Assembly: GCA_003024785.1 (NCBI GenBank)
Contig: PUQB01000007.1
Span: 660,001-724,000, forward strand
Origin: Selaginella tamariscina
Taxonomy: Eukaryota > Streptophyta > Lycopodiopsida > Selaginellales > Selaginellaceae
DNA: 64,000 nt
Reading direction: 5' to 3'
A program made the position numbers and the translations under genes. Numbering within the stretch: the stretch's first letter is position 1; the number at the start of each line of letters is the position of its first letter. This document shows positions 9,600 through 52,976 of this stretch, in pieces. Below the pieces are notes generated by a model that was not told the DNA's origin, did no database searches, and saw nothing but the letters and a program-made list of their open reading frames with translations.

Positions 9600-11100
9600 C
9601 ATGCATACCAATGCGCTCCAGAACTGTCCAAGGCCCACAATATCGAGGGGATAACTCTAGAACAATCGCTAGGACTTGCCTGATAGTTCGTCTTTCATCA
9701 ACATAATACTTAGCTCGATCTTGAGCCTGCTGCATGTTCATTATAGCTAGCACTGAAGGGACTCATCCCAATAGAAGTGTTCACAGAACTGTTATGTCCG
9801 AATTCTAACATAAGCAATTACTTCACTTTGTCTCTTAGCAGTCCTATAAATGTTCATAACATATCTTTTACTACCTGATTCACATGTTCAGTCTGTTCAT
9901 CAAATTGAAGACTCATACTCAATGTTGTCTCGAGCTTCTCAAAGACTGCTTGTCAAAATTTACGGGTGAACTTTGGATTTCTATCACTAACAATATCCCT
10001 CAGTAAGCTGTATAAACCTCTATCACTAACAATATCCCTCAGTAAGTTGTATAAACCTCTATCACTAACAATATCCCTCAGTAAGCTGTATAAACGAAAT
10101 ATTTCGTTCACAAAAATATGAGCTAAGTCTGGAGCCTTTACAACCTTTTGAGTTTGAATAAAATGAGCCAAACCCAAATTGCATCATGTCCATCGCATAA
10201 ACCAGATACGTAACGACGAATCTCCAAGTACTCATCCGGTTTCTGCCCAGGGTATTGCAATACAAGTTTATGAAAGGTCTCCGTGTAACTGAGACACTCA
10301 TATTGTCCCCTTGCTTAAAAGACGAGAATTTATGACTGCCCTATGAGCAAACATTCTTGAATAAAAGCTCAAAAGCCGACCATGTCGAAGGTGGTGTAGT
10401 CAGACTACCATATAAGTGTAGAACCATCAAAATGAAACTGCACCAGCTTCATTTTAATGTCCTCGTGGTATTATTCACGTCCCAATATTTCCTCCATTGT
10501 TCAATGCCACATTGCTCAGGTTGACCGAAGAAGTCATTAATACCATGCACCTTAAACTGCTTAAGATGCCAATTCATGTCATGCAGTGGATTAATAGGTA
10601 AACATGAGAAGTGCAAACGACAAAGAACTAAATGGCACAAGATTTCCACCAAACCCTGGCATCTGAAAAGGCATTGAAGCTGAACTTCTACAGAAGGGCG
10701 CTGTCGACGTTGATACTCTTGTTGTTGTCGTAAAAACTGTTGAAGCCCTAGGCATTGATGCAGAAAACGTCATTCCCAATGTCAACGATGTACTAACAGG
10801 TACACTTGAGTTAATCGCAACGAAACCTTGTAATAACGGACATTCCACTCGTCAATGAATCCATACGTGTAACTTGCTCATACGACGTGTCATGCAATTC
10901 ATGTTCATTAGAAACATCTTGGTCACCTCCAGTATCAACTCTCATGGTCCTAGAATTACGTCCTTCACCATCATCATTTGAATCCCTCTCAACGTCCAGG
11001 CTAGAACGACGATCACCCCGTGGAGCAATCCAATCAAGGTCCCTATGAGACACGCTACCAATTTCACAACCTAATCCTGCACGTAGCGCTACTCACCACC
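9600..11100 (-). mobile_element. Ty3/gypsy relic G1: gag joined to integrase
   Basis: Reading the minus strand from 11053, a degenerate gag comes first. It has an acidic N-terminal part at about 10811-11053, a Phe/Ser/Met-rich part at 10591-10848, and a retrotransposon-gag-like stretch at 10190-10300 resembling KPDEYLEIRRYVSGL. Without any protease, reverse transcriptase or RNase H it runs straight into integrase-core sequence at 9600-10180, including the SDRNPKF catalytic-Asp context and EQTEHVNQVVKDM. Frames break several times. No LTRs were recognised. It is a dead, internally deleted copy in the same orientation as G2 and G3. Confidence 0.7.
9981..10097 (-). repeat. 39-bp unit tandemly triplicated inside relic integrase
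   Basis: Three direct copies of a 39-bp unit start at 9981, 10020 and 10059, each beginning CTATCACTAAC and nearly identical (one AAGCTG/AAGTTG difference). On the minus strand each codes for 13 residues containing LLRDIVSDR, so the copies stay in frame. Near-identity suggests the expansion is recent compared with the general decay of the element. Confidence 0.9.
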
Positions 11101-16300: not shown

Positions 16301-17740
16301 AATAAATTGTGATTGACTTTAATATTTATTGAATTTGTAATATGAATCGTTTTTCATTTTTTATTTAAGAAATGAAATCATTATCCCTCATTAACTGCTT
16401 ACGCATTCTCATATTATAAATCAATCGCACATATATGTAAATCAATTAGATTTAATAACTCTAATTTAAAAAGCTTTCTACGTAATTTTTATGCAAGTGC
16501 AAGTTTTCACCTAAGCTTGCATGTTAGATTTGAAACATCTTATTAAAACTTCACTTAAATGTATTATACTTTTAACAAAAATTATTCTTTGTAGTATATA
16601 CAAATATATGATACAATTAACATAAACACAATTTGTTCTTTTCTAGGGCCAAGTATTCCCAACTACAGCACTTCGACTAACACATTCTCTCTCAATATAG
16701 TGAATATCATATTCTCTCTTAATCTAATGAATATCAAGAAGTCGATTTGTTGAACTAAATAAATTAGATTTGTTATTTAAATTAAAAAAGTCATTACACA
16801 TTAAAAAAAATCAATTTATAAATTATTAAGTTTACTAGAGAAGATATTAATGAACATAAGGAGTTGGTTAATGAATATAACTATTTATAAACTAGGGCCA
16901 AGATATGAACACGTAATTTTATGATGCTGAATGGTGATTAAATTTTGGTGATAAGGTTTTAAAAAGTATAAAAAATGGCATTGCATGTATTAAACCAACT
17001 AATTTCCTCTTAAAATTATAAGAGGAATTTTAATATTTAAGTAGTGATATAATCTTTATGTTGTGTTAAGTTGCTTCACAAAAACACATAGAGATTATTA
17101 TATGTGTATACTAACTCAAGGCTAACCAAATAAATAAGATTATATTATTTCAACTTAATAAGGTAAATGTGAAACTATAATAAATATATTTAATATAATT
17201 TCAAAATATAATGCTCATAGGAATTATGAATTTACATAGGGAGTAAAGCAGTGGAGATTAAAGAGGATGAAGAATGAAAATTTATTTTTTTTTGTTATGT
17301 TTCAATTAAATATGTAATTAATAAATTAAATTTTTTATTATATCAACTTTTGGACGGATATATCCTTGTTATGTGATAAGTATTATGTACGATGCATATT
17401 AATGACTCAACATTGTGTACACACATAGAGATACTTACCAAGATTAAATCTTTGTTTAAATTATTTTGACTCTACATATTTACCTGAAATAAATTACTAA
17501 GGTTAATTTTTTGAATTTAGGATAAGTCTCGTTAGGATATTTATCTAGAACCTATATACTAGATACTCTAGCCCGTTGACAAAATGCATAAAACCCAAAG
17601 GTTTTTTATTAAAAATAACTTTAAATTTATATTAATTCGCTATAGCCCTTTTGAAAAACACATACAACCCAAAACATTCTATTAAAAGTCTTTAACAAAA
17701 CGCAAATACAAAGGGAACAATTTTGCATGTGTATAAGTAG
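11100..17740. repeat. Gene-free AT-rich repeats
   Basis: No supported gene. 11190-12030 is a relative of 2045-2820. (AC)n runs at 13345-13386. 13390-14080 is a diverged direct copy of 23840-24530; both contain AATGTTATTGGTAGGATGG. 14090-14240 is an inverted copy of the repeat at 2305-2430 and 11350-11500. 14400-14560 resembles the 3' flank of the cysteine-rich peptide genes (AGGAAATAGGTGTGTAGTAAC), without the coding part. The rest is plain AT-rich DNA. Confidence 0.5.
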
Positions 17741-17747
17741 ATTAGCA

Positions 17748-17997
17748 ATGAAGAGGGGCTTGTTTGTTTTCTTCTTATTATTGACAATTTGTGAGTTTTC
17801 GGCAGCACAATGTCCTAATACGGATGACTTAGGATTATGCGGTGATTATTCCCACGATGACTTGTGCGGATTACTGCACAATGTGTCACCAAGGATTCAT
17901 AAACAATATTGCAACTTGCGTGGAATGTGATGATGGCCACTGCTCAAAGAAGTACAATTGCATTTGCTCGAATCCTTGCTACGCCTGTAATTTCTAA
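17748..17997 (+). pseudogene. Secreted cysteine-rich peptide gene, copy 1, frameshifted (CRP1)
   Basis: The open frame starts MKRGLFVFFLLLTICEFSAA, a textbook signal peptide (Lys-Arg, hydrophobic core, small residues before the cleavage site), followed by a Cys-rich mature part. Compared with copy 2 at 31306, an extra base lies at about 17846-17851 (GATTATTCCCACG against GATAATCCCACA). The frame as it stands therefore ends at 17930, while the alternative frame continues the family pattern (CVECDDGHC, CICSNPC) to a TAA at 17995-17997. The initiating Met is taken at 17748 because copy 3 shares MKRGLL there but not the upstream in-frame Met. The family is not one I recognise; secretion is inferred from the signal peptide. 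The 3' flank (AAATAAGGTGTGTA) is conserved in all copies. Confidence 0.6.
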
Positions 17998-17999
17998 CC

Positions 18000-20900
18000 C
18001 AAGGAAATAAGGTGTGTAATAACTACTTTGAATAAAATAAGGTGTGTTTTAATATGTATAAAAGTGTGTGTGTGTGTGTGTTTATTTGTATATATGAACA
18101 CACACGAAGCACAGATTCATAAAACTTATACACAGTTATGGGAAATATTATTGTGATTTTCTTGAAAGTTTATAATGTATATTTAATAATTGATTTTCTG
18201 AATGATAAATGAATTATTCCTTTTACTAAAAAGGGATGCAGCTATTATATTCTCCTTTTTAAAATTAATGAAATTTTTTCGAAAACGTAATTTAAAAAGT
18301 TTATTAATTAAATTAAAATTTATATAAAAAACTAAATTGATTCAATGTATATATTAAATTTAATTTTCAATATAATTAATTTTAAGGTAATATTAAATTG
18401 TGGCAATTATTAAAAAGATCATATTATAAATTTATTTATTTATTTTATATGTTTTCAAATTCTTGCTTTCATATTTTTTAAAAATAAATATGTATATATA
18501 CTTGAGTTATAATTCGCATAAATTTGATACGAATAGCTCTTTTATAAACATTTGTTATCTCAGACGTAAAAATAGAATAGCTAATTTTTTATTACAACTT
18601 GATAAAAAAAAGTTGCATAACCAACAAAGTTTATATATAAAAATATATAATTCATAAATACATGTATATAAGGTCAATCGAAATTAAATCATAAGGTGTG
18701 TGCGTGCTTGCGTGTGCGTGTGTGTATTTTGTTAAATTTACAGTCATAAATGAGATTGTTAACGATATCATGTAGACTCTGTTAAGTATGGCATGCATGT
18801 GGCTACACGTGGTACATACACACACATGAATACTAATATGCCTACAATTAAGCTATCACTTCAAAGATTTTAATTTTGATTAAATTTAGGGTAATTGCCC
18901 TAATGAGGGGGCCACCTAGGTTTTTCTTGTACTTTATGACATGTTATATTAATATGAAATATTTTACTTCTAGGGTTAGGGTTATTATATGGGATAGACT
19001 CTACGTATGGATCCTTATCATTATAAGCTCTTTCTCTCTTACACACACATGCACAAGCATATACAAAATGAAAATAATTTTTTTAAGAAATGTGAATTAA
19101 CGTTTTCATTATAACTAATTGTTCAATCTCTATACAAGACATAAACATTGTTATGTAGCTTTTAAAAAAGAAAGATATATATATATTTATATTAATATTT
19201 ATATCCATAAAATGCAAATAATGTCATTATTTATATAAATTTATATTAAAGATGTATAAGTTTTATACACTATTGGGATTGCTCAGTGTAAAGAGTACGT
19301 TACATTGTATATATCTTAATATATATCATGTGTATTTACATATTTTAGTATATACTTGATACGCATGTTTGTATATGTACATGTTTAAGTATTTTTATTG
19401 TGTGTATATATGCATAGTGATAATTAAATATATGGATTTAATATATACATTAGAACTCATTACATACATGTTTAAGTGTACTTTATACTTATGTGTTTAT
19501 ATGTATATGTTTATAGTTAAACAAGTGGATTTAATATAAATTCAAAACAATATATTGCAATACACATTGGTATATAATATATATTTAACTTGCATGTGTG
19601 TGCATAATCATTACATGTATATATGTGTGAATGAGGCTTTATATATGTGTGAATGGTTAACCATGGTGTTTGTGAGAAAAATGTTAATAATGTTGTGTGT
19701 GTGAGAGAGATACAAACAAGTGTATATGTGTGTGTGAGTGAGAGAGAAAAAAAGAATTACAAACAAGTGTAAATGTGTGCATATGTACACGTTTTAAAAT
19801 ATTTTTACAGATGTGTTTAATGTGGTGGAACTAATTAATTCAAATGCAAATTATTTCTTAAGGAGACATGGAATATTTAACACCATTAAAACTTAAGTGT
19901 TTGAGTCCTTAAACAAAAGTTATATTATGAATAAACAATTAATTTTAACATATGCCATACATTTTAAAAATTCTTCTTAGTTGTTTTTTTTTATAAAAAC
20001 CTTAATATAAGATTTATATTCAAAATTTAAATATAGCTATTTTAATTTCTTTTTGCTCTACAAAGTAATCCAACTCAAAAAATGTAATGTGACATGAAAC
20101 ATAATTAAAATTAAAGTAATTTAAAAGGAAAACCGTATATTGTACGGTGTGCCGTTAATGCCAAATTTTAACTTTGAATAGCTATACTAAATTTAAGTAA
20201 TTATCTTAATTAAGATTCCACGTAGGTGAATAAACTATGTATACATAAACTATAGTAGCATTGTTTTATTATTTTATTCTTTAAATGTAATACAATTAGT
20301 TTAGTATATATTGTTTATTAATTGATTAATATATTAAATTTATTTAATTGCCATCATTATACTAATATATTTTTGACTTTTTATTATTAATATCCATACA
20401 CACCCTATACGAATAAGAATAAGAAAATAAAAAAATATATATGGAACCTATCTCTATATATAGTTGATTTTTCTTATTTGAATATGTGACATACAAAAAA
20501 GTTTAGTTAAATTAACGAAAAGCTCTTCGTAATATTAAAAGTTATCAAAATCCATCCAAAACCTACACGCGGACACTATGCATGCGCATACCATATACAC
20601 GTAAATACATTACATACGTGTGTATGTATACATATTATTAGATATGTATAGTGTGGAACATAAAATAGTCTATTAAAAACTTTCCCGTCGACGAATAAAT
20701 AAAACCCAAAGGGTTTCTTAAATTTATTTATTAGAAATTAAATTTAGTATATTTAAACTGTAGAATATAAAGATTTTTTAAGAATATACAGATATTTATT
20801 TATAAATTTTTAAAAGAAATTATTTTAAATTCACCAAATCTCTTCAAAATCCAGCCTGAGTTTTTTGCCTTATTGAACTTTGTTAAATTTATAAAAGTTT

Positions 20901-21900: not shown

Positions 21901-22094
21901 TATATAATATAGTATATTAGGCATATATGAAAGGCTTCTTAAATATATACATATGCATGTGTATATTGACATAAATATTCATAGACCCCGTTATAAACAT
22001 GAAGTGCCGATGGCATAATATGTACTATGTGAGTATTAAAAAAAAGAATTTATTTAACTAATCTTAATTCAACTCAAAAAACCATCATTTCTAT

Positions 22095-23793
22095 TCCTTA
22101 ACTTTCTTTTCCTTCTGCATTGCATAATAAAACAATTAGAAGCACGCTCATGAATTACCAGTAATTTATAATATATTACGTAAAATATATATATATATAT
22201 ATATTAAATTTGATAATAATTTAATAATATCAAATGTATTACCTTATCCTTCTTCTTTTCCTTCTCAACACCATCTTTATCCTTCTCGTTGAAAAGATGT
22301 ATGCCTATATGTATTATATATTTTAAGTAGATATATATACATATTTTATAAACTATGTGAGTATATTACGTAAAATAAATATTAAATTTCATAATAGCAA
22401 ATATTTTTAGTATATACCTCCTTATCCTTCTTCTTTCCTTCTCACCACCATCTTCATCCTTACACACATATGTACATGTACATATATATACATATTTTTA
22501 AATACAAACATAAGTGTATGTATGTATGTATGTATATAACACGTGTGTGTATATAATTTAGGTTGTTACCTTCTTCTCCTTCTTTTCGTCGCCTTCTTCA
22601 AAATGATTATCTTTCTTCTCCTTCTTTTCACCATCTTTATCCTTCTCTTTCTGAAAAGATGTTTACACACATGTATACATGTACATATACATAATTTTTA
22701 AATACAAACATGTGTGTGTGTTGTGTCTCTCTCTATATGTATATAACACGTGTGTGTCTATATTTTTAAGTACATATGTATGTTTACCTTCTTTTCGTCG
22801 CCTTCTTCAGAATGCTTATTTTTCTCCTTCTTTTCTTTCTTCTCTTTGTTTGTCCTGTAATATATACATAAATAATAATATGATATTTATATAGAGAGAA
22901 ATATTTATTAACTCCTGTATACATAATCATATTTATAATTTATATATATATATATATATGCGCTACATTATCTCCTCATTGACAATATTGTAAGTTTCAT
23001 ATACATATAAACACACACACACACACATGTGTGTGTGTGTTACTTAAGTGTGTGCATGTACATGCATACTACCTAAGGATAATATTATATATATTGTGTG
23101 TATGTTCTTTTATTATATAGGTTTACCTTTTTTTATTTTCTCTCCTCTTTCTCGTCTCCTTCGTCTCCTTCATACTTAATTTAAATACTTTAAAAAATAA
23201 AATAAAATTGCATACATATGGAATACACTTACACACACATACACATACATATATACATATATACACATTTGAATGCATTACCTTCTTTTCATTCTTGTTC
23301 ATCATCTCCATTTTTGTCTTTCTTTTCCTTCAAAAATAATGAACTATTAAAATGTATTCACGCACATATACGCTCACATATACATACACATATGCGTATA
23401 TGTGTACATATTTTATACCTTCTTTTCCTTGTTATTCTTATTCTACACACATGATATATATACACTCACATTATAAAATTTATTTATATACATTTACATT
23501 TATATCAATTTACATAAATATATATAAATTATATATATACCTTCTTATCATCCTTGTCTTTCTTCTTGTCCTTCTCTACATCCTCGTGCGATTTATCCTT
23601 CTATATGTTATATATCATGATTCACGTTAATTATTTATAATTTTAGTGAGATTTATAAAATATAATATATTTACACACACACAAACACGAGAAAAAAGGA
23701 TATGTACATATAAATTAATTACTTATAGACCTTCTCATCATCCTTGTGCTTTTTCTTTACATCCTAGCTTAGGTTTCCTCTTTCAAGTGATCC
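22095..23793 (-). pseudogene. Modular Lys/Glu-rich (KED-like) gene, decayed copy 1
   Basis: This is a paralogue of the gene at 45424-47308. Recognisable minus-strand exons include a first exon ending at about 23730 (MDHLKEE, then an in-frame stop), 23541-23600 (intact KDKSHEDVEKDKKKDKDDKK, 20 residues), a shortened exon at about 23419-23442, one at about 23281-23329 with a stop, 23123-23185, about 22792-22850, a 27-residue exon at about 22575-22655 (KEKDKDGEKKEKKDN...), about 22420-22460, about 22245-22300, and a last exon near 22095-22120 ending KEKKVKE-stop. Besides the stop in exon 1, the acceptor at about 22302 has changed from TTTTCAG to TTTTCAAC, and some exons are out of frame. It is probably a pseudogene; its family is discussed under the other copy. 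Confidence 0.65.
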
Positions 23794-23899
23794 ATGTTAA
23801 ATACTATCTGTAAAATTCACAAACATAATTATATATATATATGAGAATTCATATGAGATTGGTTTATTTCTTATATATAATGTTTTTATTATTTTCTCA

Positions 23900-31305: not shown

Positions 31306-31509
31306 ATGCAATGTGTGAGTTTTTCGGCAGCACAATGTCCTAACACGGATGGCTTAGGATTATGCGGTGATAATCCCACAATGTCTTGTGCGGATTACTG
31401 CACAAGGTGTCACCAAGGATCCACTGCTCCTTGCGTGGCATGCTCTGATGGCTACTGCTCTGAGAAGTACGTTTGCATTTGCTCGAATCCTTGCGCCACC
31501 TGTGTGTGA
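31306..31509 (+). pseudogene. Cysteine-rich peptide, copy 2, signal peptide lost (CRP2)
   Basis: The mature part is intact and reads to a stop at 31507-31509. It has twelve cysteines spaced C-x8-C-x7-C-x3-C-x2-C-x7-C-x2-C-x4-C-x5-C-x1-C-x3-C-x2-C. The N-terminus is only MQCVSFSAA, without the hydrophobic signal seen in copies 1 and 3. Aligning the upstream DNA to the inverted partner (CRP3, 35200-35700) shows a deletion of roughly 480 bp that removed promoter and signal-peptide code and joined TAAATGGATAT directly to the mature region. The C-x3-C-x2-RC beginning recalls GASA/snakin peptides, but the rest does not fit. Without a signal peptide it is unlikely to be secreted. Confidence 0.6.
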
Positions 31510-32419
31510 ATAAGTTTATAATCAAGGAAATAAGGTGTGTATTAACTACTCTGAATAAACTAAGGTTATGTATAAAATTTGTGCGTGTGTGTGTGTGTGT
31601 GTGTGCGTGCGCTAAACATAACAAGCATAAACATAAAGGACTTAGTACTTTTGTTTTATCATAATTCTCATGCACTCAAGTTTTCTTTCTCCTAAGTTCT
31701 TATCTAGTATATTAGTTTTATTTGAAACTGTAAGTGGTTATGATTTAGTAAAATAAAAATAAATAATCACTGCAGAACAGTCACATAAACACGTATATAT
31801 TGCTTGTATATCTGCTTTATGTGCTTTTAAAAATATTTTATTGTGTGTGTTTATTTGTATTATATGAACAAACACGCAAATTCATAAAACTTATATAAGT
31901 GTTTTGATTGAATGAATTTTATATTAATTTAATAATTAATTTCCAACTGATACTGCATGCAAATTTACATGTCTTTTTAAATTATTTTCAATTGGTTATT
32001 TGATTTACTAAATATACAAATAAAAATAGAATTTTCTTAAAATTAAGGTCATTCATGAATAAATTAAAGTGATTTTTTTTCACAATAAATTAAAGTGCAT
32101 TAAATAAATTAAATTAAATATAATAAAATTTAAGGTAATATTATATTATTTCTCAATTAGTATAAATTGTGTCAAATTATTGAAAAGATCTTATTATAGT
32201 TTAAAAGTTTAATATATGTTTTCAAATTCTTGCTTTCATAATTATTAAAAATAAATATGGAAAAATTGTAATCCCATATATGTACTTGAGTACTTTAATT
32301 TTTCATTTGATATAGGTTTATTATAATGCTTTGGATCGACATTTTACATCGAAAGAGTAACTTTAAAACTACAAATTTTAAAGTTAACATAGTACAAAAG
32401 AGACACACACACACACATA

Positions 32420-34103: not shown

Positions 34104-35031
34104 AGTATCTTATTAAATATGTGTAGGGTGGAACATAAATCCAGAGCATATAGTTCATTTAAAATTTAATTCTAGCTTTCCGTTGACAAAATAAATAAAA
34201 TCGAAAGTGTTTTCTTAATGTTAATTTATGAGAAAGTAAGTAGAATATATTTAAGCTGTAAAAATATATAATCCTAATAAGATCTTTTCAATAATTTGAC
34301 ACAATTTATACTAATTAAAAATAATATAATATTACCTTAAATTTTATTATATTTAAAATTATACTAATGGTATACAATGAATCAATTTAATATATTAGTT
34401 CTTTATATATAATTTAATTTATTTAATACACTTTAATTTATTGTTTAAAAAATTCTTTAACCTTAAACTTCATGAATGACTTTAATTTTAAGAAAATTTC
34501 ATTTTTATTTGTATATTTAGTAAGACAAATAACTGATTGAAAATAATGACATGTAAATTTGCATGCAGTATCATTGGGAAATTAATTATTAAATTAATAT
34601 AAAATTCATTCAATCAAGTTAAGAAAACCGCAATAATATTTCCATTAACACTTATATAAGTTTTAGGTGGTTTTATGAATTTGCGTGTTTGTTCATAAAA
34701 TACAAATAAACACCACAGTAAAATATTTTAAAAAGCACATAAAGCAGATATACAAGCAATACATACGTGTTTATGTGATTTATTTTTATTTTACTAAATC
34801 ATAAGCACTTACAATTTTAAATAAAACTAATATACTAGATAAGAAATTAGAAGAAAGAAAACTTGATTGCATGAGAATTATGATAAAACAAAGTAAATCC
34901 TTTATGTTTATGCTTGTTATGTTTAGCGCACGCACACACACGCGCGCGCACAAATTTTATACATATAAAAACACACCTTAGTTTATTCAGAGTAGTTAAT
35001 ACACACCTTATTTCCTTAATTATAAACTTAT

Positions 35032-35218
35032 TCACACACAGGTGTCGCAAGGATTCAAGCAAATGCAAAGGTACTTCTCAGAGCAGTAGCCATTAGAGCA
35101 TGCCACGCAAGGAGCAGTGGATCCTTAATCCTAAGCCATCCGTGTTAGGACATTGTGCTGCCGAAAACCCACACATTGCCAATATTAACAAGAAAACAAC
35201 CAGGAGGCCCCTCTTCAT
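35032..35218 (-). pseudogene. Cysteine-rich peptide, copy 3, internal deletion (CRP3)
   Basis: The signal peptide is intact, starting at 35218 (MKRGLLVVFLLILAMCGFSA) and followed by AQCPNTDGLGL. Then 53 bp present in copy 2 are missing, from TGCGGTGAT to GTGTCACCA, between the GGATTA and AGGATCC contexts. 53 is not a multiple of three, so the frame is lost and stops at 35093-35095. The remaining 3' part (CSEKYLCIC-like, in another frame) runs to 35032. This copy keeps what copy 2 lost and vice versa. It was presumably secreted before the deletion. Confidence 0.65.
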
Positions 35219-36240
35219 TGCTAGTTTACTTAGTATACATGCCTAATTTTCTTTTCTTTATATAACAAGAGGTTTTGGGTTATATGTGTTTTTTCAAAAC
35301 TGCTATAGTTAATTAATATAAATTTAGAATTAATTTTAATAAAATCTTTGGGTTTTATGCATTTTGTCAATATATCTACTCTATATAATGAGACTTATTC
35401 TAGATTTGTAACTCAGTCAATTTGTAAATATCTCTATTGCCATCTATTTATATTATTTATTCCAGCTAAATATGTCACTTAGTATTTAACATTTTATAAC
35501 TTAATCAAAATAATCAAAACAAAGACTTAATCTTTTATACGTCGGTAACAACTGAGGAATCTTAATTAAATTTAACATTTATTAATTATATACTTAATTA
35601 AAATATAATAAAAACAGTTCACTCTTCATCCTTATTTAACTTTTAATTTTCTTTTAATTTTCACTTGTTCCATCTTTTTAATCTACATTTTTTACATCCA
35701 TTATATCTTGAAATTTTATTAAACATGACCACTAGGATTTCAAACTTAACTTATTTATATTCACTATTTTCTTATTATTTGGCTAACCTCATGAATTTTA
35801 AATCCAAGTTGCCAAGTTTAAACTAGTCAATTTAAATCATGAATTTTAAGTTATTAACTAAATTTAATTTAAATTAAGTTTAAATTTGATGACAAACTTT
35901 GAACTTTTCAAAAGAAATCTGTGTTCTAATTTAGAACATGAGTGACACTATATATGGTTATATGTGTTTTTTCAAAAGTGTTATAGTTAATCAGTAGAAA
36001 TTTAAAGTTAATTTTAATAAAAACCGTTGGGTTTTTTCATTTTGTCAATGGGTAGGTGGATAAATAAATTAATGAAATATCTTTATCTATGTACACAATC
36101 TTATATATTGTTTATTCTAGATCATGCATACAATCGTACATCGTACTACCCTTCGTACCCTAAGTATACGTGTTATTATATTAGTCACCAGGGCAAAGAT
36201 TTAATATAATTGAGAAATCTTAATTAATTTAATATTTATA

Positions 36241-45423: not shown

Positions 45424-46666
45424 TTATCCCTTAACTTTCTTCTCCTTCTGCATAATAAAACAATTAGAAGCACGTAAACCTAAACCCTAAACCCTAATCC
45501 CTAAACCAGTATTATCAGAAAAATATATCAAATTTGATAATATCATATATATTATAGAATATACCTCCTTATCCTTCTTCTTTTCCTTCTCGCTGCCATC
45601 TTTATCCTTCTCTTTCTGAAAAAGATGTATACAAATGTGTATATGTATATATATTTTTAAGTAGATATATATTACATATATTTATAGAATATATGTGTGT
45701 TTACCTTCTTCTCCTTCTTTTCGTCACCTTCTTCAGAATGCTTATCTTTCTTCTCCTTCTTTTGGCCATCTTTGTCCTTTTCTTTCTGAAAAAGATGTAT
45801 GCACACATGTATACATGTACGTAAATATACAAATTTTTAAAATACAAGCACACACGCACGCACACACACCACACACATATATATCTATATATTAAATTTT
45901 GATAATATCAAATATACTATAGTATATACCTCCTTATCCTTCTTCTTTTCCTTCTCGCCACCATCTTTATCCTTCTCTTTCTGAAAAGATGCATACACGT
46001 GTATATATCTATTATATTAAATAGATTTATATACATATTTTATAACAAACATGTGTGTATACCTTCTTCTCCTTCTTTTCGTCACCTTCTTCAGAATGCT
46101 TATCTTTCTTCTCCTTCTTTTCACCATCTTTATCCTTCTCTTTCTGAAAATATGTATACACACATGTATATATGTACATATATACATATTTTTAAAATGC
46201 ATACAGACACACGTGTGTGTGTGTGTATCTGTGTGTATGTATATTTTAAGTACATCTGTGTGTGTTTACCTTGTCCTATAATATACACATAACTAATAAT
46301 ATGATATTTATATAGAGAGAATATATATTTATTAACACACACATGCGGCACGCGTGCACACACACCCACACATTTATACCTTCTTGTCCTTCTTTCATCA
46401 CCTTCCTCAGAATGCTTGTCTTTCTTCTCCTCCTTTTCTTTCTTTTTGTCCTCTTCATCTCCATGCTTTAATGTTTTTAAGTCAGATATATACAGAATAA
46501 AATACACACACACATACACACACACACGTATGTATGTGTGTGTTTTTGCTTGAGTGTGTGCATGTACATGCATACATCTTTTTTCTTTTCTTTCTTCTTT
46601 TCTTGTCTCCTTCGTCTCCTTCATACTTGATCTAAATATTTTTAAAAAAAATGCATACATATAGAA

Positions 46667-46711
<45 letters not shown>

Positions 46712-47308
46712 ATACACATTTGAATGCATTACCTTTTTTTCTTTCTTGTCCTTTTCTTTTCCTTCTCCTCGTCATCTCCATACTTGTCTTTCTTTTCCTT
46801 AAAAAATAATGAATTATTAAAATGTATTCACGCACATATACGCCCACATATACATACACTTATACGTATATGTGTACTATTTTGTACCTTCTTCTCTTTG
46901 TCACGCCCATCATCTTCCACATGTTTATCCTTCTTATCCTACACACATGATATATACTATATACACTCACGTTATAATGTTTATATGCATTACATATACA
47001 TATATATATAAATTATATACATACCTTCTTATCATCCTTATCTTTCTTCTCTCCTTCTTCTCTACATCCTCATGCGATTTATCCTTCTATAAATAATATA
47101 TCATGGTTCACGTTAATTATATATAATGTTAGTGAGATTTATAAAAATAATATATTTATATAAGTTTACACACACACACACAACACACACGAGAAAAAAG
47201 GATATGTACATATATATTATAGACCTTCTTCTCATCCTTGTGCTTTTTCAATACATCCTCATCGTGCAAATGCAGCTTAGCTTGGATTTCCTCTTTCAAG
47301 TGCTCCAT
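45424..47308 (-). CDS. Modular Lys/Glu/Asp-rich protein, exon-array gene (KED-like), copy 2
   Basis: Exons read on the minus strand: 47308-47225 (MEHLKEEIQAKLHLHDEDVL..., 28 residues), 47086-47025, 46938-46888 (DKKDKHVEDDGRDKEKK), 46797-46733, about 46637-46578, 46465-46380 (ending in DKHSEEGDE), a 6-nt exon 46275-46270, 46143-46063 (27 residues, KEKDKDGEKKEKKDKHSEEG...), 45980-45930 (17 residues, KEKDKDGGEKEKKKDKE), 45785-45705 (27), 45615-45565 (17) and 45447-45424 (KEKKVKG-stop). Introns are GT-AG and, where frames are clean, phase 0, so each exon is a self-contained module. The last four large exons are two copies of a 27+17-residue cassette about 358 bp long including introns. The product would be highly charged, Cys-free and intrinsically disordered. 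Composition recalls the wound-induced tobacco KED protein and lysine-rich dehydrin tails, but homology is unproven. Exons 2, 4 and 6 each seem to lack one A and break frame; the donor of exon 5 is unclear. Confidence 0.65.
45479..45507. repeat. Interstitial telomere-like tract (CCCTAAA)n
   Basis: AACCTAAACCCTAAACCCTA followed by ATCCCTAAACC gives about four plant telomere units, lying in the last intron of the KED-like gene. It is absent at the matching position of the duplicate (about 22150). Confidence 0.8.
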
Positions 47309-47387: not shown

Positions 47388-47738
47388 AAAATGTTTAAAA
47401 TTAATTAAATGTATGATGTGAGAAAACGTGAAGATTGAACTAAGTAAAATCAATTTATTTAAGTTTAACTTTAACTTTGTATAAATCAAATGATAACATT
47501 AATCAGTAGAATGCATCACAAAAAAACATAGGTAATTATATAACAAATACACACATATAAAAATAAATGTATTATAAATCAAACAATAATAAATGCATCA
47601 GATAAATATACTCAATTATATAAATATGTATACACACGCATACACATATACACATCCGATCCACACTGAATTACCTGATTGGAGGAATATAAGGCGATCG
47701 ATCAAACCGGCTATCACAAAATGTAAGATGAGCTTATA

Positions 47739-47769
<31 letters not shown>

Positions 47770-48814
47770 CAGGAGTCCGCGTAAATCTTAACCGCAGATC
47801 TGCACTGCTTTCTGATAGTGAGGTGTCGGTGATCTGACGGATGAAATCTATATTGTTTTTTAATCCGGAATCTGTAACGGCTAATATATGAAGACAGTAC
47901 GTGTTTCACACGTTATAGATATATTTTACACTAATGCAGATCTATAAGTATATTATAAAAGTATTCGTTAAACAATAATCGTTCAATTGAAGTATAATAT
48001 TTAATCAGTGAAGATATCATTAATATATTATAAAGTTAAATATTATTATATAAAAATAATTTAAATAATTCTAGTCTTAAAATATACTGAATCTGTACAG
48101 CCGCCTTCATTTGTCTCATCTGTGAACGTGAATTTTTATTGTTAATTTAAAATAGATACATAAAATACCTTTAGTGATTCTTACACGCTTTTTTTAATTT
48201 ATACAAAAGTTTTAATATATTTTATTTTTTGAGTTTTAGTATTTATTAATTTATTATCTGTATACTTGATGTTCGTTTAAAATGTAACCTTTTGGATAAT
48301 GCATATGGTTTTGACACGTTTTTTATTTATGCACAAAGTTTTATATATGTTTATTTCTCTTAGTTTTAATAATTATTAATTATTAAGTTAATATTTATTA
48401 TAACTTAAAATATACCACCTGCCATGTCACTTAAAGTGACATGATGTAGATGGAGGGAGCTGTATAACATAATGGTTCCTGAATCCCTTATTTAAAATAC
48501 TATAAACATATTTTATCAGTTTTTAAATAAAGATTAAACCTGGAAAAGTATATCTATATAGAATGGAAACACATTCGAAATAAGGTGTAAAACCAGCCTT
48601 TATTTATTTTATTTAGATCGTTTTCAGCTCATTTAATCTGCTACATACACCATGTTATTTCTGTTGACTTCCTATTTTAAATTTAATAAGTAGTCAACAT
48701 AGTGATTTAAAGAAAATACAAAAGCCAGTTTGACCACAAAATAATACAATTTAATTATTTTATATGAATTTTACTTGATCAACACTTAACTTATAAATTT
48801 ATTCATAAATATTA

Positions 48815-50400: not shown

Positions 50401-50555
50401 GTTGAATTTATAAATAATTAGTTAAACTACTATTGTTTAGTTAAATGTGTGCATTATCATCCTGTTAAATTCATACAATCATATACAGACCTGCAGTATT
50501 ATATAATGTAGTTCCTCAGTTTGCTAGGAAGTGTGTCGGGGCTTGTTTGCGAGAT

Positions 50556-52038
50556 ATGGTAAGTAAAAAACACACATACACACACACACGTATATGCATA
50601 TGTGCTACGCAGGGACCGGGAACACCAGTGATGGCTAAAGAGAGTGGGGAAGTGTTCATTTCAGCAAACCCGGAATGTGATGACTTTCTTGAGCTTCTTC
50701 CTATGCTTCTTAACAATCCACATACCGAAAAAGATGCCATACACACCATGGGTATATTCTCCGGTGGCTCCACTCCGGATCACAGTAATACATCTGCTGA
50801 GGACTCCAACACGAAGAACATACAAGATATGTATCCATCTTCTGCAGTCTATAATGCGCCGCCTGCTAACAAGTTTAGAACTCTTCCTGCATTGCTAGGG
50901 GGCTATGTACCGAGGAGAATATGCCCAAACATGGGATTCTCTCCAAGGAATCTAAGGAGGTCTTCCCAGATGAACACAATGAGAGGAAGGAGAAGGCAGG
51001 CTCATCTTCGAATAAGGCCAGTGCATCCAAGAATCTCGTTTCCGAACGGAAGCGGAGAAAGAAACTTAATGAACGCCTGTATTCGCTACGTGCTATCGTC
51101 CCCAAGATCAGCAAGGCAAGCTTTAAGTGACGTATATAGGTGTATATATGCAGTTCAAAAGAATGTGTATTTGCACTAAAATCCATGAGAAATGCATCAT
51201 TTTTATTAATTCTTTATTAAATTTTTATAGATGGACAAGGCTTCAATAGTTGCAGATGCAATCGACTATGTGCAGGAGTTGCAGAACAAAGTGAGTGAAT
51301 TAGAGGAGGATGTATCGAGCCTTGAGGCAGCCGAGAGGCGTGAGGTAGAGCTCGGTAGCGTGGTTGATGCGTGGAATGAGATGGTTAATGTCGGTGAGAG
51401 GTTCTACTCATCAGATATTGATCAACACTATGTCAAACTGCAGAAACAAGACAGCAGAAAAGCTCTAGAGGTTAGTGCAATTTTTACTTAATTACATATA
51501 ATTAGCTATTTAAAACTTAATAAATAAAAAAAACCATGTCGTTATCAGAAGTTACAGCAATGTTTGGTCTTCAGTTGCTTTCTTCATCCAAGTTTACCTG
51601 CAGTGTGTACTTGTGTCATTATCATGGTTTATCTTTTTATTTAATTAAATTATATTAATTAACTAATTAATGATGATCTAATTTACAGTTAGAAGTTTCC
51701 AAGCTGGAGGACCAAGTCTTCTACTTAAGAATTAACTGTGGTAATTCTGATGGAGTACTTATTCAGCTTGCAAAGGCATTTGAGTCTATTGGACTTGAGT
51801 TTAGTAATGCAACACTCTCTTCTTTCCAAGGCCAACTAATTAACAGCTTCATTGCAAGGGTAAAAATATAAGGATTTATTTATATAAACTATTATATAAA
51901 AATATATTAGTTTATTATTAAATTATAAAGTAATATTATATATGGTGGTTGTAGATGGAGGAGTGGAAGTCTTTGGACAATGATGAAGTGAAGAAGATTA
52001 TAGTTGAGCTGGCTTCCAAGTTTGGCATTCACTGCTAG
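50556..52038 (+). CDS. bHLH transcription factor with ACT-like C-terminal domain
   Basis: Model: a mini-exon ending ATG at 50556-50558, or alternatively a start at Met 50631; main exon 50613-51115; exons 51231-51470, 51689-51859 and 51955-52038 (stop TAG). The basic/helix-1 part reads SKNLVSERKRRKKLNERLYS and continues to VPKISK, with the His/Glu-Arg-type E-box contacts present as E-R-x-R. Helix 2 begins in the next exon (MDKASIVADAIDYVQELQ), followed by a coiled segment. The last two exons (LEVSKLEDQVFYLRINCGNS, then FIARMEEWKSLDNDEVKKI) resemble the ACT-like dimerisation fold of plant bHLHs near bHLH35, DYT1 and AMS. It should be a nuclear DNA-binding regulator; its target process is not deducible. 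The intron after KISK has a GC donor. A single base seems missing near 50906 (LPALLGGY in one frame, TEENMPKHG in the next). Confidence 0.8.
51116..51230 (+). other. GC-AG intron in the bHLH gene
   Basis: The donor is AAG/GCAAGC and the acceptor TTTTTATAG/ATGGACAAGG. The exon junction falls at the intron site usual between helix-1 and helix-2 code in this bHLH group (KISK/MDKAS) and keeps the frame in phase 0. Using any nearby GT would break the conserved domain. Confidence 0.75.
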
Positions 52039-52202: not shown

Positions 52203-52976
52203 ATGGCGGCTGTGGACGGCGTGGCAAAGGAGTCTACTGAGGAGGCGAAGCTCGATCTATTGAGGACGATGACGAGTTCGAGGAATTTGAGAACGAAGGT
52301 AATATGTAGGAAAATAGCAGAAATTTCTGCTTTTTATTATAGAAATTGGTACAGATCTCCATATTACAACATACTATGTTGTGTGTATGCGGATTATTGT
52401 AACATATATTTGACCACAATAGTTTAATTTGCAGAAGCATAGGTAAATATTTATATTATATTATGTAGGTGCCTCTGCTTTACGTGGTATGACCTGTGCT
52501 CTCTCTCTCTCTCTCTCTTAAACTGATTTATAAGCTCTGTGTGTATCTAGCAAATTAACTAACCCGCAAGTAATTAATATAGACATATAACATATAGATG
52601 TCTATTAATATATAGACATGTAACATATAGATGTCTATTAATGTATAGACATGTAACATATAGATGTCTATTAATGTATATTAATTATTTGTCTGTTGGT
52701 TGTGCATGTGTTGCTGCTGTCTCCATTGCCAAGTGTCGAACAAATACTACAATAATTCTCATAGTATACTATGTTGCCGTCATAATCTATATACCTCACA
52801 TCTTTCACACAAATCTATTAGGAGAACCGACATGAACCTATTATATCTATTTGTGCAGAGATTGTATAAAACATATTCTGATATGTGTATGTAGTATGAA
52901 AACGACAGTAAACTGGATTATGTACTTTGCTGTATACATGTGTTTGATATGATATGTTTGTATTTGTTTATATATT

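Follow-up and report, generated by a model that had tools for sequence, protein, structure and literature searches.

The minus strand of the 64-kb window (the whole stretch of DNA analysed here) carries, at 45424–47308, an array of small charged exons, array A. The array is genuine, and its architecture is rather uncommon for a gene. From its sequence, we consider it reasonably probable that array A is an intact gene for a LEA-like, disordered and strongly polyampholytic protein whose length has been evolving by exon duplication. A second copy of the whole gene, paralogue B, which the first reading of this DNA overlooked, lies on the same strand at 22091–23795; we detected it by self-comparison of the window and direct reading.

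Array A contains 12 candidate exons of 24–86 nt, with a doubtful exon of 6 nt among them, which bears out the original prediction of at least eleven small charged exons on this strand. From exon 1 to exon 12 the lengths are 84, 62, 51, 65, 54 (or 56), 86, 6, 81, 51, 81, 51 and 24 nt. The exons are 85% purine and 10% T; the introns (82–144 nt) are 41% T. As assembled, eight of the 12 (exons 1, 3 and 7–12) are multiples of three in length and in phase 0, with AG/GT borders that, where internal, fall between codons. The claim that the exon borders fall between codons thus holds for these eight and fails, in the assembly as it stands, for exons 2, 4, 5 and 6.

Exon 1 (47225–47308; 84 nt, open) provides the start codon (MEHLKEEIQAKLHLHDEDVLKKHKDEKK) and has a weak donor (GTCTAT, score 1.1); a possible leader-intron acceptor, tttacag, lies just before it. 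Exon 2 (47025–47086; 62 nt) has AG/GT borders and a frame that is broken as assembled, its length being of the form 3n − 1; its counterpart in B measures 60 nt and is in frame. Exon 3 (46888–46938; 51 nt) is a phase-0 module, DKKDKHVEDDGRDKEKK, with AG/GT borders. Exon 4 (46733–46797; 65 nt) again has AG/GT borders, a weak acceptor, a length of 3n − 1 and a broken frame. At the border that corresponds to that of B, exon 5 would measure 54 nt but lacks a GT; extended to the nearest usable GT (AAAGAT/GTATGC, score 1.0, similar to the exon 1 donor) it spans 46576–46631 and 56 nt, likewise 3n − 1 and broken as assembled. Exon 6 (46380–46465; 86 nt, 3n − 1) encodes an HSEEGD-type module behind a weak acceptor (−2.4); its frame break is close to the 3′ end, and no positional counterpart is visible in B. 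Exon 7 (46270–46275) is a 6-nt candidate (DK) at a position where B has an exon of 67 nt (22788–22854), and is probably the remnant of the longer exon that B has kept. Exon 12 (45424–45447) encodes KEKKVKG and the stop codon, which has the same position in B. Splice sites were scored with approximate Arabidopsis weights; the donor of exon 1 and the acceptors of exons 2, 4, 5 and 6 scored low. Within the last intron of A, a TTTAGGG-type telomere-like repeat (45475–45507, minus strand), of which none was seen in B, is possibly the scar of a double-strand break repair.

The predicted tandem cassette of 27 + 17 residues proved exact. Exon 8 (46063–46143; 81 nt, phase 0, AG/GT borders) encodes the 27-residue module KEKDKDGEKKEKKDKHSEEGDEKKEKK and exon 9 (45930–45980; 51 nt, phase 0) the 17-residue module KEKDKDGGEKEKKKDKE; exons 10 (45705–45785) and 11 (45565–45615) are their respective copies, each with one residue different, and the starts of exons 8 and 10 (46143 and 45785) set the period at 358 bp, matching the estimate of about 358 bp. 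The KEKDKDG-type consensus that had been quoted for the whole array has a narrower reach: exons 8–11 alone stay close to it.

Paralogue B consists of ten exon remnants in the same order as in A and with the same stop position. An in-frame stop interrupts its first exon, which also has a deletion of 19 nt, and elsewhere one acceptor has been lost and several frames are broken. BLAST of B against A found no homology upstream of 23842, so that B appears to lack the candidate promoter of A. On this sequence evidence B is very probably a pseudogene. The 27-17-27-17 arrangement of A corresponds in B to a single 27-type exon plus two of the 17 type, which are cut to 41 and 42 nt. Because the two cassettes of A are 87% identical and A and B only 76–78%, a duplication in A after the A/B split is favoured, the alternatives being loss in B and gene conversion. 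With the cassette present twice in A and once in B, module number changes, and the comparison indicates that whole modules have been gained or lost between the two genes. The earlier idea that modules can be gained or lost is upheld to this extent, and the difference suggests that the protein changes length by gain or loss of whole exons.

Several comparisons indicate that the charged blocks encoded a protein under selection. Aligned exon bases differ between A and B at 55 of 461 positions (12%), and intron bases at 245 of 1012 (24%; P = 3 × 10−8; A exons 6 and 10 excluded); for the two cassettes of A the counts are 6 of 132 in exons and 32 of 191 in introns (P = 0.0007), with no indels in the exons and six indel events in the introns. 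Synonymous differences exceeded non-synonymous ones between the cassettes (pS 0.226, pN 0.017; Fisher P = 0.003) and between A and B pooled (pS 0.212, pN 0.034; P = 0.0009). Taken singly, A10 versus B7, A2 versus B2 and the 5′ part of A4 versus B4 gave P < 0.02, whereas A8 versus B7, A9 versus B8, A11 versus B9, A12 versus B10 and A5 versus B5 did not. Among the pooled changes, 17 of 27 were at third codon positions (P = 0.0015), as were 16 of the 22 transitions (P = 0.0002); separately, the cassettes gave P = 0.10 (transitions, 0.045) and A versus B gave P = 0.058 (transitions, 0.066). Pooling took in exons 2, 8, 9, 11 and 12, the 5′ parts of exons 4 and 5 and the cassette comparison, and left out exons 1, 3, 6 and 7 and indel stretches; exon 10 versus B (P = 0.006) was kept unpooled. 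These statistics involve few changes, pool the alignable exons and come partly from a dead paralogue, B. Lower divergence in exons than in introns, together with the third-position bias, implies that the blocks encoded a selected protein. As first- and second-position transitions would leave the exons purine-rich, the pooled result points to constraint on residues beyond exonic splicing signals, and argues for selection on the encoded residues, not merely for purine or splicing-enhancer constraint.

The blocks are neither chance tracts nor a dispersed repeat. Stretches with at least 13 K, E or D in 17 residues number 11 in the window, all on the minus strand (seven in A, four in B); such blocks were absent from 20 of 20 dinucleotide shuffles, and chance purine tracts were accordingly rejected. 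When the DNA of array A was compared with the assembly (300,702,823 bases in 1391 contigs), at least 73 match rows were obtained (40 of 157 candidates scored): one was A, six were B and 66 lay over introns of the query, one of these overlapping exon 10 by two bases. For exon 1 and its leader, matches were confined to A, B and three short AT-rich pieces adjoining A. A genome-wide simple repeat was rejected at the DNA level, given that the listed matches other than A and B sit over introns; the same purine-rich blocks occurring genome-wide outside genes, the case that the original prediction had set against itself, were not found among the DNA matches listed. A search for RNA families returned none at the gathering score.

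As assembled, inclusion of all exons of A gives no open frame. Nine inner exons (all but exon 5) can be combined in 512 ways, of which 64 are open to the stop. The six intact inner exons by themselves allow just as many combinations, and hence no combination that contains exon 2, 4 or 6 is open. An in-frame model of A as assembled was sought by dynamic programming and rejected, as it came only at the price of skipping, a 2-nt exon or splice sites that were poor or non-homologous. The idea that exons 2, 4, 5 and 6 compensate one another in phase, worked by hand, was rejected too, as inclusion hits stops. The four frame-breaking exons (62, 65, 56 and 86 nt) are all of length 3n − 1, and one unknown base per exon restores an unbroken charged module in all four. 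The excess of exon lengths divisible by three (8 of 11, P = 0.009) is given no weight, because exon 5 is counted as 54 nt and duplicated exons are treated as independent.

We used GRAS genes, which usually have no introns, as a control of assembly quality (at least 132 matches, 110 of 166 candidates scored). Many GRAS loci in the assembly are split between frames, and one pair of copies, compared over 1074 bases, is free of substitutions and differs by two single-base losses in homopolymers. In 11 near-identical contig pairs (≥90% identity over ≥300 bases, from 48 GRAS loci fetched with flanks), 107 gap openings stood against 35 mismatches in 15,049 aligned columns; the direction of the GRAS frame shifts, determined by hand, was mixed and not uniformly one base short. 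G+C content is 28.8% in the window and 41% in the fetched loci. On the assumption that the pair differences are errors divided evenly over the two copies, the 696 exon bases of A should contain about 2.5 indels, with a probability of 0.24 for four or more; this rate is an upper estimate, as some gaps in simple repeats may be allelic and genuine pseudogenes may be among the broken GRAS loci. Since near-identical contig pairs differ mainly by small indels, frame breaks here are weak evidence of pseudogenes, and the reading of the breaks as decay lost ground with this control, which revealed how common contig-to-contig indels are. No second contig copy of the array A locus was present among the assembly matches listed (40 of 157 candidates scored). 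Erroneous indels in the assembly are the likeliest source of all four breaks in A; a review lists Selaginella tamariscina with PacBio and Falcon (PMC8558194).

That A and B are both pseudogenes in decay, derived from an older phase-0 exon-array gene, with the breaks in A real, nevertheless has points in its favour: four exons of A are out of frame, exon 5 has lost its homologous donor, the acceptors of exons 2, 4, 5 and 6 all score low, and B is broken in several ways. We regard it as unlikely. The breaks in A are uniformly 3n − 1 whereas the lesions of B are diverse, the cassettes of A keep a synonymous excess at 87% identity, with indels confined to their introns, and the measured contig-to-contig indel rate suffices for the breaks.

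Elsewhere around A, an ALOG gene and a DSS1/SEM1 exon have open frames, and a bHLH-type gene (50469–51488) changes frame near 50880, at an intron acceptor or through a further assembly indel. Near the DSS1/SEM1 exon lies a 33-bp tandem repeat (52577–52680; 3.2 copies, 97% match). Three related DNA copies, one of them inverted (17576–18081, 31309–32196 and 34275–35370), surround a frame resembling a small cysteine-rich protein (AQCPNTDGLGLCGD...); two frames tested from these copies had no match in Pfam. At 9980–10095, a 39-bp (13-codon) unit occurs in three near-perfect copies that are open on both strands. Upstream of A, 47675–47960 (minus strand) is a candidate promoter and untranslated first exon with a possible donor (CAATCAG/GTAATT). 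It has TATATATAAG, one ACCGAC core of the CRT/DRE type (47825) and an inverted ACGTGT pair (47899 and 47908). In the window RCCGAC occurs 9 times and ACGTGK 76 times, too few or too common to weigh; as a product of motif counts alone, this candidate is a lead and no sign of function.

Read through, array A encodes about 233 residues (four of them unknown), 78% of which are K, E or D, with a net charge of +7 and without Trp, Phe, Cys or Pro; the net charge of individual exons ranges from −3 to +3. The intact exons alone spell a protein of 140 residues (77% K/E/D), the form in which the product was scanned, and this matched no Pfam family at E values up to 0.5 and nothing in the PDB at E values up to 1. 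Being a strong polyampholyte, the protein would not be expected to fold. The most economical reading of the sequence would be a LEA-like disordered protein, maybe lineage-specific. As there is no Pfam or PDB relative, a protective role rests on the composition and the presumed host, Selaginella tamariscina, which is a resurrection plant. A literature text search with the module peptides gave, among the matches listed, none on this gene. One match was a paper on disordered lysine-rich domains of snoRNPs (PMC11528048), which fits a Lys/Glu/Asp-rich disordered region serving nuclear or nucleolar interaction and not protection from dehydration. The 140-residue protein has no accompanying Pfam domain, and we find such a role for the product of A rather unlikely.

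The same 140-residue form raises the possibility that the breaks are real and harmless, exons 2, 4, 5 and 6 being skipped to leave a protein of 140–142 residues from exons 1, 3 and 8–12, with or without exon 7. The restriction of the open subsets to combinations free of exons 2, 4 and 6 agrees with this, as do the weaker acceptors of the exons to be skipped. Exons 2 and 4 nevertheless have good donors (5.8 and 4.0), so that constant skipping is not obvious, and assembly error is simpler; we consider skipping improbable.

The composition had also suggested a KED-type protein. In KED proteins of 93 seed-plant species K + E + D makes up 48.9–74.9%, according to the available portion of PMC9994729, a range that A slightly exceeds; a KED protein of Selaginella moellendorffii is reported at 69%. 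That part of the proposal fits, as extreme K + E + D content is common to A and the vascular-plant proteins. Family membership is not supported, as the signature is missing: the 19-residue C-terminal domain that defines KED proteins, described in all 93 seed-plant species and also in a fern and a lycophyte (PMC9994729, available portion), has no counterpart in A, the domain string being absent from the 140-residue protein, whose last 51 residues contain by eye neither Leu nor Ile. A lycophyte KED orthologue is therefore highly improbable, the C terminus being KEKKVKG in A and KEKKVKE in B in place of a KLEKI-type domain. The main text of the KED paper contains no words beginning with exon, intron or splic. 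Bryophyte KED-rich direct-repeat proteins have K/E-rich repeats, as does A; the likeness is one of description, and their relation to exon borders is not described in the available portion (PMC9994729).

Membership in the dehydrins (LEA group 2, H-type) was rejected as well: the K-segment (Pfam PF00257) was not found in the 140-residue protein, and by eye two of five H-segment positions (Ile8 and His13) agree. With H-type (KS) dehydrins such as HIRD11, as covered in the accessible part of PMC8669000, A shares Ile8 and His13 in register from the start and a Lys-rich stretch, and lacks the K-segment, the serine run, Gly3, Lys7 and Gly15; the available text places the entire coding region of H-dehydrins in one exon, unlike that of A. 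Soybean SRC1 and pigeonpea CcCDR, a further lead, were dropped, the available portion of PMC4144763 giving no match to test. A dehydrin-like gene does occur elsewhere in this genome, at locus L070 (1498–1990, minus strand), with a very similar copy at L071; it is Gly/Tyr/His-rich, apparently of two exons, stays below the Pfam cut-off and ends in a K-segment-like EKKQGFMEKIKKK and a terminal serine run.

The nearest architectures to that of A would be the titin PEVK exons and the schistosome micro-exon genes, a likeness at the level of the gene if A is intact. The vertebrate PEVK region is likewise encoded by many small exons in a row, 113 of them annotated in human, and is Lys/Glu-rich and subject to exon duplication and loss, and for part of it total length rather than particular exons is indicated; it differs in belonging to a giant animal muscle protein, rich in Pro and Val, with documented splice isoforms (PMC6469411, available portion). 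The likeness to A is architectural, and homology is not expected. Micro-exon genes of Schistosoma also have many short exons, mostly multiples of three and up to 81 bp, and differ in encoding secreted parasite proteins with signal peptides, in having introns of 100 to almost 5000 bp and in the absence of K/E/D modules from their description in the accessible part of PMC10526429. In the open-licence literature, no description of an exon array for a plant disordered stress protein appeared among the matches listed.

We propose that array A forms a single gene with about 12 exons, mostly complete modules between phase-0 introns, with a product of about 230 residues, and that it grew by tandem duplication of entire exon-plus-intron units. 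Because such units are frame-neutral and carry little net charge, their gain or loss would alter length and little else. The four frame breaks would be assembly indels and A would be intact and expressed. AAG, GAA and GAT codons make the exons purine islands in T-rich introns, so that protein composition and exon recognition may reinforce each other; GAAG, AAGA and AGAA tetramers number 19 per 100 nt in the exons of A and 0 in its introns, a partly circular contrast as the exons were chosen for purine richness. More tentatively, and by analogy, A could be a plant counterpart of the titin PEVK array, in which the length of a stress protein is set by the number of phase-0 exons, between paralogues and possibly between conditions.

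The case of array A suggests how genes of this kind can escape annotation through indels in an assembly. Judging from its composition and presumed host, the product would be a hydrophilic, LEA-like protein that protects a lycophyte tolerant of desiccation, and dehydrin work suggests that length, as hydrodynamic size, would be its tunable property. Disordered protectants may act partly through their size: when dehydrins protect lactate dehydrogenase against freezing, the effect follows their hydrodynamic radius more than the order of their residues, and for another client protein size alone was not protective, as given in the available portion of PMC9599493. If true, length held as countable, frame-neutral exons in a plant that tolerates drying would make the idea of protection by size testable by natural variation.
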